Assembly: GCF_009711525.1 (NCBI RefSeq)
Contig: NZ_SMLV01000434.1
Location: forward strand, 1 to 64,000
DNA: 64,000 nucleotides
Reading direction: 5' to 3'
Source of the DNA: Fulvivirga lutimaris
Lineage (GTDB): Bacteria; Bacteroidota; Bacteroidia; Cytophagales; Cyclobacteriaceae
The translations under genes and the position numbers were made by a program. The notes below the pieces were generated by a model. That model had not been told where the DNA came from. It was given only the letters and a program-made list of their open reading frames with translations, and ran no database searches. Positions 38,005 to 41,599 of this stretch are shown here, one piece after another. The first letter of the stretch is position 1. Every line of letters starts with the position of its first letter.

Positions 38005-39141
38005 ATGGTATATGATGTCATTGTAATTGGGGTTGGTTCTATGGGATCGGCCACCTGTTATCAGCTAGCTGCACGGGGTGTGAAGGTGCTGGGTATTGAG
38101 CAATTTGGTATTAGCCATGAGAATGGTTCGCATACCGGCCAAAGCCGCATTATTCGCAAAGCCTACTTTGAGCACTCCGATTATGTGCCGTTGTTACATA
38201 AGGCTTATGACGGCTGGCGTCATCTGGAAAAGAAGTCGAGGAGGCAGTTTTACTGGCCTACAGGCATTGTATACTTTGGTGCTGAAGGTGACACTACACT
38301 AACATCTATAAAGCGTTCGGCCGACACCTATGACATAAAGCTGGATCAACTGGACTTAGCTGAAGCTAAGCTGAAGTGGCCTCAATTTAAAACACCTTCA
38401 CACTATGAGTGTCTTTTTGAGCCAGAGGCTGGTTTTGTAACTCCAGAAAGGGCTATTCAGACTTATGCTGAAATGGCAAAAGAACTAGGCGCGGAAATCC
38501 ATACCAATGAGCGCATAGAAAAATGGGAGGTAGGCAGCAATGGAGTGACTGTTACTACCAATCTAAGACAATATAGAGCAAGCAGGATAGTATTTGCATC
38601 AGGCGCATTTTCTGAGCAGCTGCTTGATTTGAAAGTTAAGCTTAAAGTTACCAGGCAGTATTTGGCGTGGGTAAAACCGCAAAATAATTTCAAATACGAT
38701 CCGGCCAATATGCCATGCTGGCTATTGGTGGATGAGGGCAGAGATGGCGCTTTTTATGGGTTCCCTCAAATGCCAACTGAAGTTGGTGGTCCAGAAGGGG
38801 TAAAGTTTGGCTATCATAACCCCGGAGAGGTTTATAGTGACCATGAGGATTTAGAGGTACTTGAGCGTGAGAAGGAATTACTCAATGATTTTCTGGCTCG
38901 CTATTTCAATCAGGTGAATGCTAAGTTAGATACAGTGAAGTCGTGCAAATACACCTATACTCCCGATGATCATTTTATAGTTGACCTGCTGCCTGATATG
39001 AATGAGCGTGTTGTGATTGCCTGTGGATTCAGCGGCCATGGTTATAAATTCTCACCAGTAATAGGCGAGGCATTAGCCGATCTTGCCCTGGAAGGCGGCA
39101 GTGATTTGCCTATCCAGTTTTTGGAATTGGGGAGGTTCTAA
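38005..39141 (+). CDS. solA: N-methyl-L-tryptophan/sarcosine oxidase family
   Basis: A 378-residue flavoprotein of the monomeric sarcosine oxidase family, closest in layout to SolA. The Rossmann motif GVGSMGSATCYQLA is at 9-22, HTGQSRIIRKAY follows, and C314 (VKSCKYTYTPD) matches the Cys that carries covalent FAD. The C-terminal FSGHGYKFSPVIGE is typical. It oxidises N-methyl amino acids, making formaldehyde and hydrogen peroxide. The substrate is uncertain. Monocistronic; a palindrome downstream may act as its terminator. Confidence 0.9.
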   Translation: MVYDVIVIGVGSMGSATCYQLAARGVKVLGIEQFGISHENGSHTGQSRIIRKAYFEHSDYVPLLHKAYDGWRHLEKKSRRQFYWPTGIVYFGAEGDTTLTSIKRSADTYDIKLDQLDLAEAKLKWPQFKTPSHYECLFEPEAGFVTPERAIQTYAEMAKELGAEIHTNERIEKWEVGSNGVTVTTNLRQYRASRIVFASGAFSEQLLDLKVKLKVTRQYLAWVKPQNNFKYDPANMPCWLLVDEGRDGAFYGFPQMPTEVGGPEGVKFGYHNPGEVYSDHEDLEVLEREKELLNDFLARYFNQVNAKLDTVKSCKYTYTPDDHFIVDLLPDMNERVVIACGFSGHGYKFSPVIGEALADLALEGGSDLPIQFLELGRF

Positions 39142-39160
39142 AACCCACCTCAAATTATTG

Positions 39161-39229
39161 TCTTGCCGGACTTGATCCGGCATCTCCGACATTTAGACCC
39201 CGGAACTAGTCCGGGGAGAGCATTTTTTT
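39161..39229. repeat. Left palindrome pair of the DUF559 element
   Basis: Two palindromes: GCCGGA-CTTGA-TCCGGC (39165-39181, within a 27-base block at 39161-39187) and CCCCGGA-ACTAG-TCCGGGG (39198-39216), followed by a T-run at 39223. The 27-base block recurs at 39753 with one change, in the same orientation. The second palindrome plus T-run could end the solA transcript. It resembles REP-like palindromes. Confidence 0.8.
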
Positions 39230-39237
39230 ACTGTGTA

Positions 39238-39633
39238 CTAGTTCCCCTCCTGGGAGGGGCTAGGGGTGGGTCGGTTAACTTCAATCCATTGATAAATCTC
39301 ATTGACAACCCATCTGATATTTTTCTTAACATCTAAATCATCAAAGCGTAGAAAGTGCACTCCTAATGATTCTAACCGTTCCTGTCTGACTTTATCTTTT
39401 ATCTGCTGTATTTCAGGATGATGACTACTGCCATCAATTTCTAGCGCAAGCATTAAATCTTTGCAGTAGAAATCTACTATGAAATTGTCAATAGGTATTT
39501 GTCGGCTAAACTGAAAGCCGAGTTGTTTGCCTTTGAGTTCATTCCAAAGTAGTACCTCACTTAATGTCATATTGGCTCTGAGCTTTTTGGCCAGTGGAAG
39601 TAGCTTTGGGTTATATGGAATGATCTTGCGCAT
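39238..39633 (-). CDS. DUF559 endonuclease-fold protein
   Basis: A 131-residue protein of the DUF559 family, a small restriction-endonuclease-like (Vsr-like) fold. Family marks are LRANMTLSEVLLWNELKGKQLG at 19-40 (helical start), then FIVDFYCKDLMLALEIDGSSHH with the D and E-x-D active-site pattern, and LGVHFLRFDDLDV. The last residues (NRPTPSPSQEGN) do not belong to the fold: they are encoded by the flanking repeat at 39241-39276. Inverted copies of that repeat flank the gene. Activity is presumed from the fold; the target is unknown. Confidence 0.85.
   Translation of the reverse strand: MRKIIPYNPKLLPLAKKLRANMTLSEVLLWNELKGKQLGFQFSRQIPIDNFIVDFYCKDLMLALEIDGSSHHPEIQQIKDKVRQERLESLGVHFLRFDDLDVKKNIRWVVNEIYQWIEVNRPTPSPSQEGN
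39241..39276. repeat. Flanking repeat R, left copy
   Basis: GTTCCCCTCCTGGGAGGGGC followed by a G-rich stretch (TAGGGGTGGGTCGG) overlaps the 3' end of the DUF559 gene and supplies its last codons. It contains the inner palindrome CCCCTCCTGGGAGGGG. A divergent inverted copy is at 39664 and a degenerate direct copy at 39713. Confidence 0.75.
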
Positions 39634-39663
39634 TAATTACAATATAGTAATTGTGAGAGAAAT

Positions 39664-39700
39664 GTTACCCACCCCTTTGTCCCCTCCTTGGAAGGGATTA
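39664..39700. repeat. Flanking repeat R, inverted copy
   Basis: GTTACCCACCCCTTTGTCCC followed by CTCCTTGGAAGGG is the reverse complement, with differences, of the left copy at 39241. It lies 30 bases upstream of the DUF559 start, so the gene is bracketed by terminal inverted repeats about 37 bases long. Confidence 0.65.
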
Positions 39701-39712
39701 CTTGCATGGTGT

Positions 39713-39751
39713 ATTAGTTCCATTCTAGGGAGAAAATAGGGGTAGTAGGTT
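39713..39751. repeat. Flanking repeat R, degenerate direct copy
   Basis: ATTAGTTCCATTCTAGGGAG followed by AAAATAGGGGTAGTAGGTT aligns with 39236-39274 in the same orientation, with several substitutions in the C-rich part. It lies just before the right palindrome pair. Confidence 0.55.
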
Positions 39752-39752
39752 A

Positions 39753-39841
39753 TCTTGCCGGACTTGTTCCGGCATCTCCTGATTAATAGTTGAAGTTTTA
39801 TTTAAAAGGGCCCGGAACTTGTCCGGGCATAGTGCTTTTTC
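39753..39841. repeat. Right palindrome pair of the DUF559 element
   Basis: A direct copy of the left pair: a 27-base block (39753-39779, 26 of 27 identical) with palindrome GCCGGA-CTTGT-TCCGGC, then GCCCGGA-ACTTG-TCCGGGC (39810-39828) and a short T-run at 39836. The gap between palindromes is about 20 bases longer than on the left. Confidence 0.8.
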
Positions 39842-39842
39842 A

Positions 39843-39876
39843 TTTATAATTATAAAAATAATTTTATAATTATAAA
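39843..39876. promoter_or_regulatory. Tandem operators for the BlaI-type repressor
   Basis: The perfect 14-bp palindrome TTTATAATTATAAA occurs twice, at 39843-39856 and 39863-39876, exactly 20 bases apart. BlaI/MecI dimers bind palindromes in front of their own genes. The right copy overlaps the expected -33 position of the promoter, which would let a bound repressor block RNA polymerase. Confidence 0.7.
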
Positions 39877-39892
39877 TATAGTTATATATTTG
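39862..39892 (+). promoter_or_regulatory. Promoter of the blaI-M56/M23 operon, probably leaderless
   Basis: TATATTTG (39885-39892) matches the -7 pattern exactly. Nineteen bases upstream is TTTT (39862-39865), a weak -33. The ATG starts 4 bases after the -7 box, so transcription probably begins at or near the start codon. Confidence 0.6.
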
Positions 39893-39896
39893 ACGC

Positions 39897-40268
39897 ATGA
39901 ATGAATTAACTAAGGCCGAAGAGAATATCATGCAGGTACTCTGGAAGCTCAAAAAGGGCTTTCTGAAAGATATTGTGGAGGCTCTTCCAGACCCCAAGCC
40001 AGCCTACCCAACGGTATCTACTGTTATTAGAGTGATGGTGAAAAAGAAATTTGTAGGGCATAATACCTACGGAAAGATCAATGAGTACTATCCATTGATA
40101 AAGAAGGAGGATTACTTTAAAAATCACTTCAAAGGAATGGTGTCTAACTTCTTTGAAAACTCATGGCAGGGCTTTGCTACATTTTTCAGTAATTCTGATT
40201 TGACGGTAGATGAACTTCAAGCCATTAAAGCTGAAATCGATAAAGAAATTAAAAAGAAAAACGAATGA
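39897..40268 (+). CDS. BlaI/MecI-family repressor
   Basis: A 123-residue winged-helix repressor. It starts ELTKAEENIMQVLWKLKKGF, typical of the family, with the recognition helix in YPTVSTVIRVMVKKKFV and a C-terminal dimerisation helix bundle. In the known system the sensor protease triggers cleavage of the repressor. Here the stop overlaps the start of the M56 gene by 4 bases, the usual pairing. Two palindromic operators lie directly upstream, so autoregulation is likely. Confidence 0.93.
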   Translation: MNELTKAEENIMQVLWKLKKGFLKDIVEALPDPKPAYPTVSTVIRVMVKKKFVGHNTYGKINEYYPLIKKEDYFKNHFKGMVSNFFENSWQGFATFFSNSDLTVDELQAIKAEIDKEIKKKNE

Positions 40269-41599
40269 ACCCTGTGCAGTACTTTCTCATGTCTGGCATT
40301 GGCCTTTTACTCTTCTGGCTTTATTATTTCATATTCTTAAGAGGCAAGACTTTTTTTGCCATGAACAGATGGTATTTGCTAAGTGCACTAGTTATCAGCT
40401 TAGCTGTCCCATTTGCCTCTTTATTTCTTACTTCTGAACAATTACCTGCAGCCATATCGCAGGTCACTTCTTTATCAGAGACCTCTAACCTGGATATTTC
40501 AGAGGTGACAAGACAGTGGAGTACTATGAGTTCTTCGACCAGCATTTGGCCAATTGTAATTCCTGCTGCTTATGGAGTGATAGCCCTTTTATTGTTAGTA
40601 AGGTTAATATGGGGCATTCGGTCTGCATTATTTATGGTGAAACAATCGGAAAGATTGATCATCCACGGACAGGAGGTTTATGCCAATGACAAAGTTAAAG
40701 AGCCAATTTCCTTATTTAATAAAATATATATTCCAACCCACTGGAAGAACCATGTGCCTTATGAAATTATTATTCATGAGCGGGAGCACATTAACAAAAA
40801 GCACTTTATTGATCTGGTTTTTATAGAGCTGTCAATAATTGTATTCTGGTTTAATCCTGTGATCTATCAACTCAAGAAAGCGATTAGAATTAACCTGGAA
40901 TATCTGGCCGATAGGGAGGTAATACTACAAGGAGGAAATCTTCTGGCCTATCAGTCATTACTCGTTTCACAATCACTTGAAAGCAGCAACAAGTACCCAA
41001 TAACAACAAATTTTGCTGCACCACTTAAAAATAGAATAAGTATGATGAACAAAACAAAAACTCGAAACTGGGGACGCCTTTTTATTATTGGTGCGCTTCC
41101 TATGACCGCAGGACTGTTGGCCATGAACACTCGCCCTGAGGTAAAAGCCCCAATCCTAGAATTTGCTGAGCCCCTGACAAGTTTGGTTGAGGAGGTTCAG
41201 CCTAAAGGCTGGCCAATTAGATTAGATGGTGCGATAAAAATAACCGCACCATTTGGAGAAAGAATGCATCCTATTCTTAAAGAGAAGAAACACCATGATG
41301 GTGTTGATATCAAAGCCAAAGAAGGTACACCAATTTATGCTACTGCTGATGGTGTAGTGGAACTTGCCAAGTTTGATGATGCAAGAGGTTATTACGTTCA
41401 AATCAAACATGGTGATAAATATGCTACTCAATATGCGCATATGAAAAATTTTGTGGTGATGCAAAATCAGAAGGTATTTAAGGATCAGCTTATCGGCTAT
41501 GTGGGTAATACCGGAGCTTCTACAGCTCCACATTTGCATTATGAAATCCATGAAGACGGAAAGCCAGTCGATCCAAAATTGAGTACCGAAGGCTGTTAA
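40265..41599 (+). CDS. M56 (BlaR1-like) sensor protease fused to M23 peptidase
   Basis: A 444-residue fusion. The N-terminal half is a BlaR1-type M56 protease: membrane helices near 5-25, 37-55 and 95-117, zinc motif H171-E-R-E-H175 and third ligand region NLEYLADRE (E212). A fourth helix (271-289) leads outside. In place of BlaR1's penicillin-binding sensor is an M23/LytM domain (about 315-444) with H344, D348, H392 and the H423-L-H425 motif, all catalytic ligands present. So a peptidoglycan hydrolase takes the sensor position. It overlaps the repressor gene. Known as an architecture in Bacteroidota; the signal is unknown. Confidence 0.93.
   Translation: MNPVQYFLMSGIGLLLFWLYYFIFLRGKTFFAMNRWYLLSALVISLAVPFASLFLTSEQLPAAISQVTSLSETSNLDISEVTRQWSTMSSSTSIWPIVIPAAYGVIALLLLVRLIWGIRSALFMVKQSERLIIHGQEVYANDKVKEPISLFNKIYIPTHWKNHVPYEIIIHEREHINKKHFIDLVFIELSIIVFWFNPVIYQLKKAIRINLEYLADREVILQGGNLLAYQSLLVSQSLESSNKYPITTNFAAPLKNRISMMNKTKTRNWGRLFIIGALPMTAGLLAMNTRPEVKAPILEFAEPLTSLVEEVQPKGWPIRLDGAIKITAPFGERMHPILKEKKHHDGVDIKAKEGTPIYATADGVVELAKFDDARGYYVQIKHGDKYATQYAHMKNFVVMQNQKVFKDQLIGYVGNTGASTAPHLHYEIHEDGKPVDPKLSTEGC

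Follow-up and report, generated by a model that had tools for sequence, protein, structure and literature searches.

The 64,000-nt stretch of the Fulvivirga lutimaris genome analyzed here (contig NZ_SMLV01000434.1, positions 1 to 64,000; hereafter, the window) contains a gene of the DUF559 family set among short repeats. This gene (39238..39633, minus strand) encodes a predicted protein of 131 amino acids, and the units at the locus follow one another across 39158-39840 in the order P1, P2, R1, DUF559 gene, R2 (inverted), R3 (direct, decayed), P1, P2. R1 (about 39241..39271, plus strand) reads CCCCTCC-TG-GGAGGGG-CTA-GGGGTGG and encodes the C-terminal residues RPTPSPSQEGN of the DUF559 protein, while R2 (about 39666..39697, minus strand) is inverted relative to R1. 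The outer repeats, all on the plus strand, are the palindrome P1 and its partner palindrome P2, each present in a left copy (39158..39187 and 39199..39228, respectively) and a right copy (39750..39779 and 39811..39840). The flanking copies are direct repeats, with 28/30 identical positions for P1 and 80% identity for P2. Shuffles yielded 0.00-0.01 matches, placing P1, P2 and R beyond chance in the window. The repeat and gene order that an earlier note on this DNA had claimed around DUF559, i.e., direct P1-P2 pairs, an inverted R and a DUF559 gene, was thereby confirmed. The third R copy that it listed is real, lying in direct orientation relative to R1 (about 39716..39752, plus strand), but is badly decayed and has lost its intact triad. 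With R2, it has the appearance of a degenerate dimer of R.

The DUF559 protein of the window scored 93.7 bits against PF04480, for which the curated cut-off is 20.6, and is thus a member of the DUF559/YcjD family (PMC1189080; PDB 3HRL). Residues D54, E65, D67 and H71 were invariant in the DUF559 alignment. An AlphaFold2 model of the protein had a mean pLDDT of 93 and a PD-(D/E)XK fold like that of Vsr and I-Bth0305I. Its best match in the PDB was 3HRL, a gonococcal DUF559 protein, followed by 3r3p, the catalytic domain of I-Bth0305I (TM-score of 0.69-0.79 on the target, E 2e-4), with Vsr matching weakly; the model thus has the fold of a homing-endonuclease catalytic domain. This is the sole DUF559 gene in the genome. 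The family has so far been known merely as predicted nucleases, and a comparison of profiles had already tied YcjD to Vsr (Kosinski et al., 2005; PMC1189080). The literature searched, i.e., open-licence PubMed Central, yielded no function or repeat partner for DUF559/YcjD.

Judged from its sequence, R has the architecture of an intrastrand triplex motif of the BoxC/PIT/TM type, in which a pyrimidine arm is followed by a purine arm, a spacer and a mirror third purine strand. R1 exhibited 7/7 Watson-Crick and 7/7 third-strand matches (a hairpin and then a purine strand mirroring the purine arm, with G.G and T opposite A), and R2 exhibited 7/8 and 8/8, respectively. These two were the only triads that a triad scan found in the window. 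Formation of an intrastrand triplex has been shown in vitro for the E. coli motif (PMC4666352), to which R is likened by sequence. The exact E. coli consensus, CCCTCNCCC..GGGNGAGGG..GGGNGAGGG, is not matched by R of the window, which is the variant CCCCTCC..GGAGGGG..GGGGTGG; we class R as a putative triplex-type motif and not as E. coli BoxC itself. In addition to the two clear R sites at the DUF559 locus, one was found on contig C74, where an inverted R pair stands about 80 bp apart with no gene between.

The association of DUF559 genes with triplex motifs extends across many phyla. A triad was detected within 400 bp of the gene at 118 of 164 DUF559 loci, as compared with 13/1061 control windows (1.2%) located at least 900 bp away in the same loci. 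The 164 loci comprised 71 from genomes of the order (Cytophagales), 80 from contigs across phyla and 13 plasmid-collection records, one of them from E. coli; two of these three sets were assembled on the basis of sequence similarity and are uneven samples. Motif scans depend on the thresholds chosen, and the association was robust to a stem length of 5, 6 or 8. Triads were present on both sides of the gene at 76-77 loci. The third strands of both R1 and R2 point towards the gene, an orientation that represents a minority class (14/77), the commonest being outward (45/77).

The two flanks of a locus were also found to resemble each other. When the left flank was compared with the inverted right flank of the same locus, the median score was 21 vs. 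9 for mismatched loci; the match was weaker in a second locus set (median 14 vs. 9), in which 20/92 loci lay above the 99th percentile of the null. Many intergenic loci carry long direct copies (about 60-200 bp) of the whole motif dimer on their flanks. In the order set, motif similarity tracked DUF559 similarity both across host families (rho 0.42) and within them (rho 0.69), and these values were reached in 0/1000 trials each when motifs were shuffled within host families. Because the loci share ancestry, such gene-motif pairing tests are descriptive; they nevertheless show joint inheritance of gene and motif, the motif not being drawn from the repeats of the host. A single genome can harbour several DUF559 genes that differ in their motifs.

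In several genera, leuS was found to contain an in-frame motif-DUF559-motif block whose two ends are each formed by the motif (host genes were named by eye from sequence motifs). At one site (site 1), before the FTTR(P/I)D motif, the block is present in genomes G229 and G173 and absent from their congeners G064 and G144; similarly, G069 is filled and its congener G082 is empty. At a second site (site 2), before TMPGWAGSSW, G019 is filled and G078 empty, and G085 is filled and both G058 and G099 are empty. The insert-free congeners are compatible with gain or loss. Solo in-frame motifs without a gene were seen in G036, G020 and G079 (site 1) and in G141 (site 2). Each of these genomes yielded a single leuS match. 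Other in-frame blocks were found in ileS and metH. In one genus, such blocks also lie at the 3' end of a purine-synthesis gene, which has there received several different DUF559 lineages. In the leuS of G088 (L245), the right-hand motif at site 1 is repeated in tandem, with three in-frame copies of QNSLTSGEGWGGAK.

A tree of DUF559 proteins, in which many forks are unresolved, did not place all leuS copies in one clade. The existence of site-specific homing lineages in leuS was rejected, as clustering in this tree does not follow the insertion site. The copy in leuS of G085 paired with that in metH (92/67), the outcome expected from a jump within the genome. Sinorhizobium meliloti replicons were discarded as an empty-site panel, the matches being mislabelled chromosomes that all carry the gene.

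Motif copy number was determined in 241 genomes of the order using the pattern GAGGGGN{1,6}GGGGTGRG. DUF559 was present in 116 of these genomes, with a patchy distribution. At least two motif copies were detected in 63/100 genomes with a strong DUF559 match vs. 12/125 without one (p 8e-18), a contrast reached in 0/2000 within-family permutations; after deducting four copies per DUF559 gene, the figures were 39/100 vs. 12/125. Relatives that carry DUF559 have many motif copies, unlike the genome of the window. Outside the Bacteroidota, 18 of 20 genomes (Pseudomonadota, Chloroflexota, Patescibacteria and others) matched a three-part pattern, with up to 138 motifs each and none in the control; these genomes were picked for carrying DUF559, and hence show dispersal and not correlation. 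Four genomes, G045, G027, G151 and G061, possess 12-32 triplex-type motifs and no detectable DUF559; the gene may have been lost or missed, or the motifs may have another source.

In E. coli, ycjD is a DUF559 gene located between sapF and fabI, and strain MC1061 has an exact match to the published TM consensus between ycjD and fabI. The sapF-ycjD-fabI stretch was at least 80% covered in 3362/5426 complete E. coli genomes. Two strains examined that do not have this stretch carry an efflux operon after sapF, and in one of them, the sequence read beside sapF and fabI contained no ycjD and no consensus motif. Lineages with ycjD are those of phylogroups A, B1 and C. Alternation of ycjD with eefRABCD also appears in a published survey (PMC12817139). 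Because it is one locus in few lineages, the E. coli case is a bench handle more than a proof of mobility. In E. coli NCTC86 (L281), ycjD is annotated as incomplete, its 3' part apparently having been deleted between short direct repeats (GGAGACGGTGCTGGAGAATATTC).

P1 and P2 form a dispersed palindrome family that is separate from R. Across the whole genome, P1 had 34 matches with up to three mismatches (control, 0), corresponding to 29 distinct sites once palindromes counted twice had been merged, and P2 had 47 (control, 7). Most P1 matches are followed about 20-40 bases further on by a P2-like palindrome, and this pair is REPIN-like, given the resemblance of P2 to the complement of P1. Pairs of this family, with CCGGA..TCCGG stems, were found on contigs C39, C143, C154, C234, C381, C397 and others (L002-L027). 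The left P1 has the form TTGTC-TTGCCGGA-CTTGA-TCCGGCA-TCTCC. Set against the features of a CGTC-type REP (CGTC/TGTC tag, 8-9 bp stem, 4-5 nt loop, CCA-like tail and head-to-head dimers), its loop fits and its tag fits partly, but its stem and tail do not fit exactly. The dispersed family has no recognised mobility gene, in which it resembles the CGTC-type REPs, also reported without one. The two P1-P2 copies that bracket the DUF559 unit resemble each other more closely than they do the copies elsewhere in the genome, as though they had arisen by a duplication that included or surrounded the unit.

A P-like palindrome was present within 400 bp at 3/160 DUF559 loci. In the genus, DUF559 was detected in 15/15 genomes, with P at or near control level in most and abundant mainly in the genome of the window. 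P1/P2 were rejected as the DUF559 partner because of this low proximity and the scarcity of P in DUF559-carrying congeners, and form another repeat family that happens to flank the unit at this locus. The earlier note had likened the locus to a REP-RAYT system in which a DUF559 protein would mobilise the palindromes. A nuclease other than Y1 is indeed tied to palindromic repeats, and its family behaves like a mobile element with non-autonomous repeats; the partner, however, is R and not P1/P2. DUF559 was also rejected as the missing enzyme of CGTC REPs (PMC3733652), as CGTCAT[TC] occurs near only 9/160 DUF559 loci. Similarly, a RAYT was rejected as the partner of P or R, given that the two Y1 (RAYT-like) genes of the genome show other palindromes, with neither P nor R palindromes seen on reading their flanks. 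One of these Y1 genes (L217) has its own GAGGAC-type inverted palindromes nearby, an ordinary RAYT-like arrangement.

The neighbours of the locus are genes for an FAD oxidoreductase (38005-39141), a penicillinase-type repressor (39897-40268) and a BlaR1-like M56/M23 protein (40265-41599). Just upstream of the repressor-like gene, at 39842-39877, lies a perfect 16-bp AT inverted repeat with a 4-nt loop (ATTTATAATTATAAAA / TTTTATAATTATAAAT), a possible operator or terminator.

On balance, we consider it likely that the R-DUF559-R block belongs to a two-part type of mobile element that is very widespread and consists of a small Vsr/I-Bth0305I-type nuclease and its cognate triplex repeat. This reading is carried by what was observed for the family, i.e., the constant association of gene and motif, the unit boundaries in leuS, the pairing by lineage, the filled and empty sites in congeners and the fold. 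In the mechanism that we propose, unwinding or a single-stranded state, for instance at a replication fork, would allow the triplex repeat to fold, and the DUF559 protein encoded by the element would recognize the folded repeat and cut at its foot. During repair of the break, the repeat would be copied or moved elsewhere, either by itself or together with the gene, and gene-less copies would constitute the dispersed BoxC-type repeats. In the many intergenic copies that are flanked by direct repeat dimers, recombination between the dimers would remove the gene, and a single dimer would remain, comparable to solo long terminal repeats. The R-DUF559-R copy of the window is probably old, considering its decayed R3, the few R copies and the lack of a known empty site.

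Several findings weigh against this reading. The genome of the window has only three clear copies of R, in addition to the decayed R3, and hence not the many copies expected of BoxC/PIT/TM repeats. Of the solitary repeats that the earlier note had proposed searching for, P1 and P2 are dispersed but R is nearly confined to the locus, which comes close to the situation that the note had regarded as refuting mobility. Empty sites, which it had also proposed to look for, were found for related units in leuS but not for the locus of the window, where none was readable because the nearest ortholog of the left neighbour is only 48% identical and belongs to another genus. About 28% of DUF559 loci had no motif by the strict scan, and the copy-number contrast was weak under within-genus permutation (109/2000). 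Furthermore, 12 genomes without detectable DUF559 carry 2-32 motifs, and motifs are therefore kept or acquired in the absence of the gene. For the DUF559-motif inserts, no target-site duplication was defined. Finally, neither movement nor cutting was observed, and we infer the recognition of the folded repeat, the cutting and the chemistry of insertion.

It is also conceivable, although in our view unlikely, that DUF559 genes are passengers, merely accumulating at insertion hot spots formed by triplex repeats that spread by replication slippage or through other enzymes. The motif-rich genomes that are devoid of DUF559 would agree with this, as would the several lineages received at one purine-synthesis gene within a genus and the reported unstable, rearrangement-prone nature of triplex motifs in E. 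coli (PMC4666352). Passengers would not, however, be expected to have a motif sequence that tracks their lineage even across host families, nor to form leuS blocks that start and end with the motif, and motifs are rare beside other genes, as seen in the control windows. The in-frame inserts in essential genes, with empty sites in the same genus, are also difficult to reconcile with DUF559 being a domesticated caretaker, i.e., a repair nuclease kept beside the repeats without moving them, with the task of resolving folded triplex repeats and protecting forks. Such a role would suit the Vsr-related repair fold (PMC1189080) and the fixed position of ycjD between sapF and fabI in the majority of E. 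coli genomes, but not the several different DUF559-motif pairs per genome or the patchy distribution of the gene, and we regard it as quite unlikely.

Two further explanations concern the locus itself. The direct orientation of the P1-P2 pairs around the gene, their dispersal in the genome and the greater likeness of the two flanking copies would be consistent with a RAYT-like mobilization of P1-P2 by the DUF559 protein of the window. Nevertheless, P is not a triplex motif, and its scarcity, both near DUF559 genes and in the other DUF559-carrying genomes of the genus, makes this very improbable. R1 and R2, being strong hairpins in an intergenic stretch, might instead be ordinary transcription terminators of convergent genes, unrelated to mobility. 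This is scarcely credible, as the same motif occurs within coding genes, in frame with the gene block, has kept its third-strand half and tracks DUF559 rather than gene ends.

The proposed two-part element shares features with several known systems. With BoxC/PIT/TM repeats (Holder et al., 2015; PMC4666352), R has the triad in common, and the ycjD locus of E. coli matches their consensus exactly; here, however, a DUF559 gene is tied to the motif, and R of the window is a variant of the consensus. REP/RAYT systems (REPtrons) similarly have a gene between short palindromes with an asymmetric tag, repeats that are often inverted dimers and dispersed copies without the gene. They differ in that DUF559 is a PD-(D/E)XK nuclease and not a Y1/HUH transposase, and in that the tag is the third triplex strand and not GTAG. 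No GTAG was found at the palindrome foot of R or P, and the unit contains no Y1/HUH transposase, the two Y1 genes of the genome being elsewhere. The Vsr-type homing endonuclease I-Bth0305I has the closest solved fold after DUF559 itself, and a further shared trait is that conserved genes receive the insertion, with sites that recur in different genera. In contrast, DUF559 inserts have no intron or intein and stay in the protein, and the palindromic repeats found at their ends are also dispersed as copies lacking the gene. Rickettsia palindromic elements (RPE) and CGTC REPs (PMC3733652) are also palindromes that occur in frame in protein genes and have been described without a dedicated transposase, but belong to another sequence class than R, and are closer to P1/P2 of the window.

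BoxC/PIT/TM repeats have been reported in hundreds of bacterial genomes, including that of E. coli K-12, and have been linked to genome instability. To our knowledge, they have remained without an assigned enzyme since the 1990s. The gene-motif pairing described here makes DUF559 the first candidate enzyme for their spread, though an earlier description of this pairing may exist outside open-licence PubMed Central. We suggest, more tentatively and as a claim slightly more apt to fail than to hold, that BoxC/PIT triplex repeats owe their mobility throughout bacteria to DUF559 proteins, which would be their long-missing enzymes, recognizing the three-stranded fold and spreading it with or without the gene, also in frame into essential genes. 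If true, this would represent a mode of transposition without a transposase, integrase or splicing. The presence of YcjD in E. coli K-12 turns the question of how triplex repeats spread into a bench experiment. A nuclease block that enters essential proteins in frame and stays there has a rare lifestyle for a mobile element in coding DNA.
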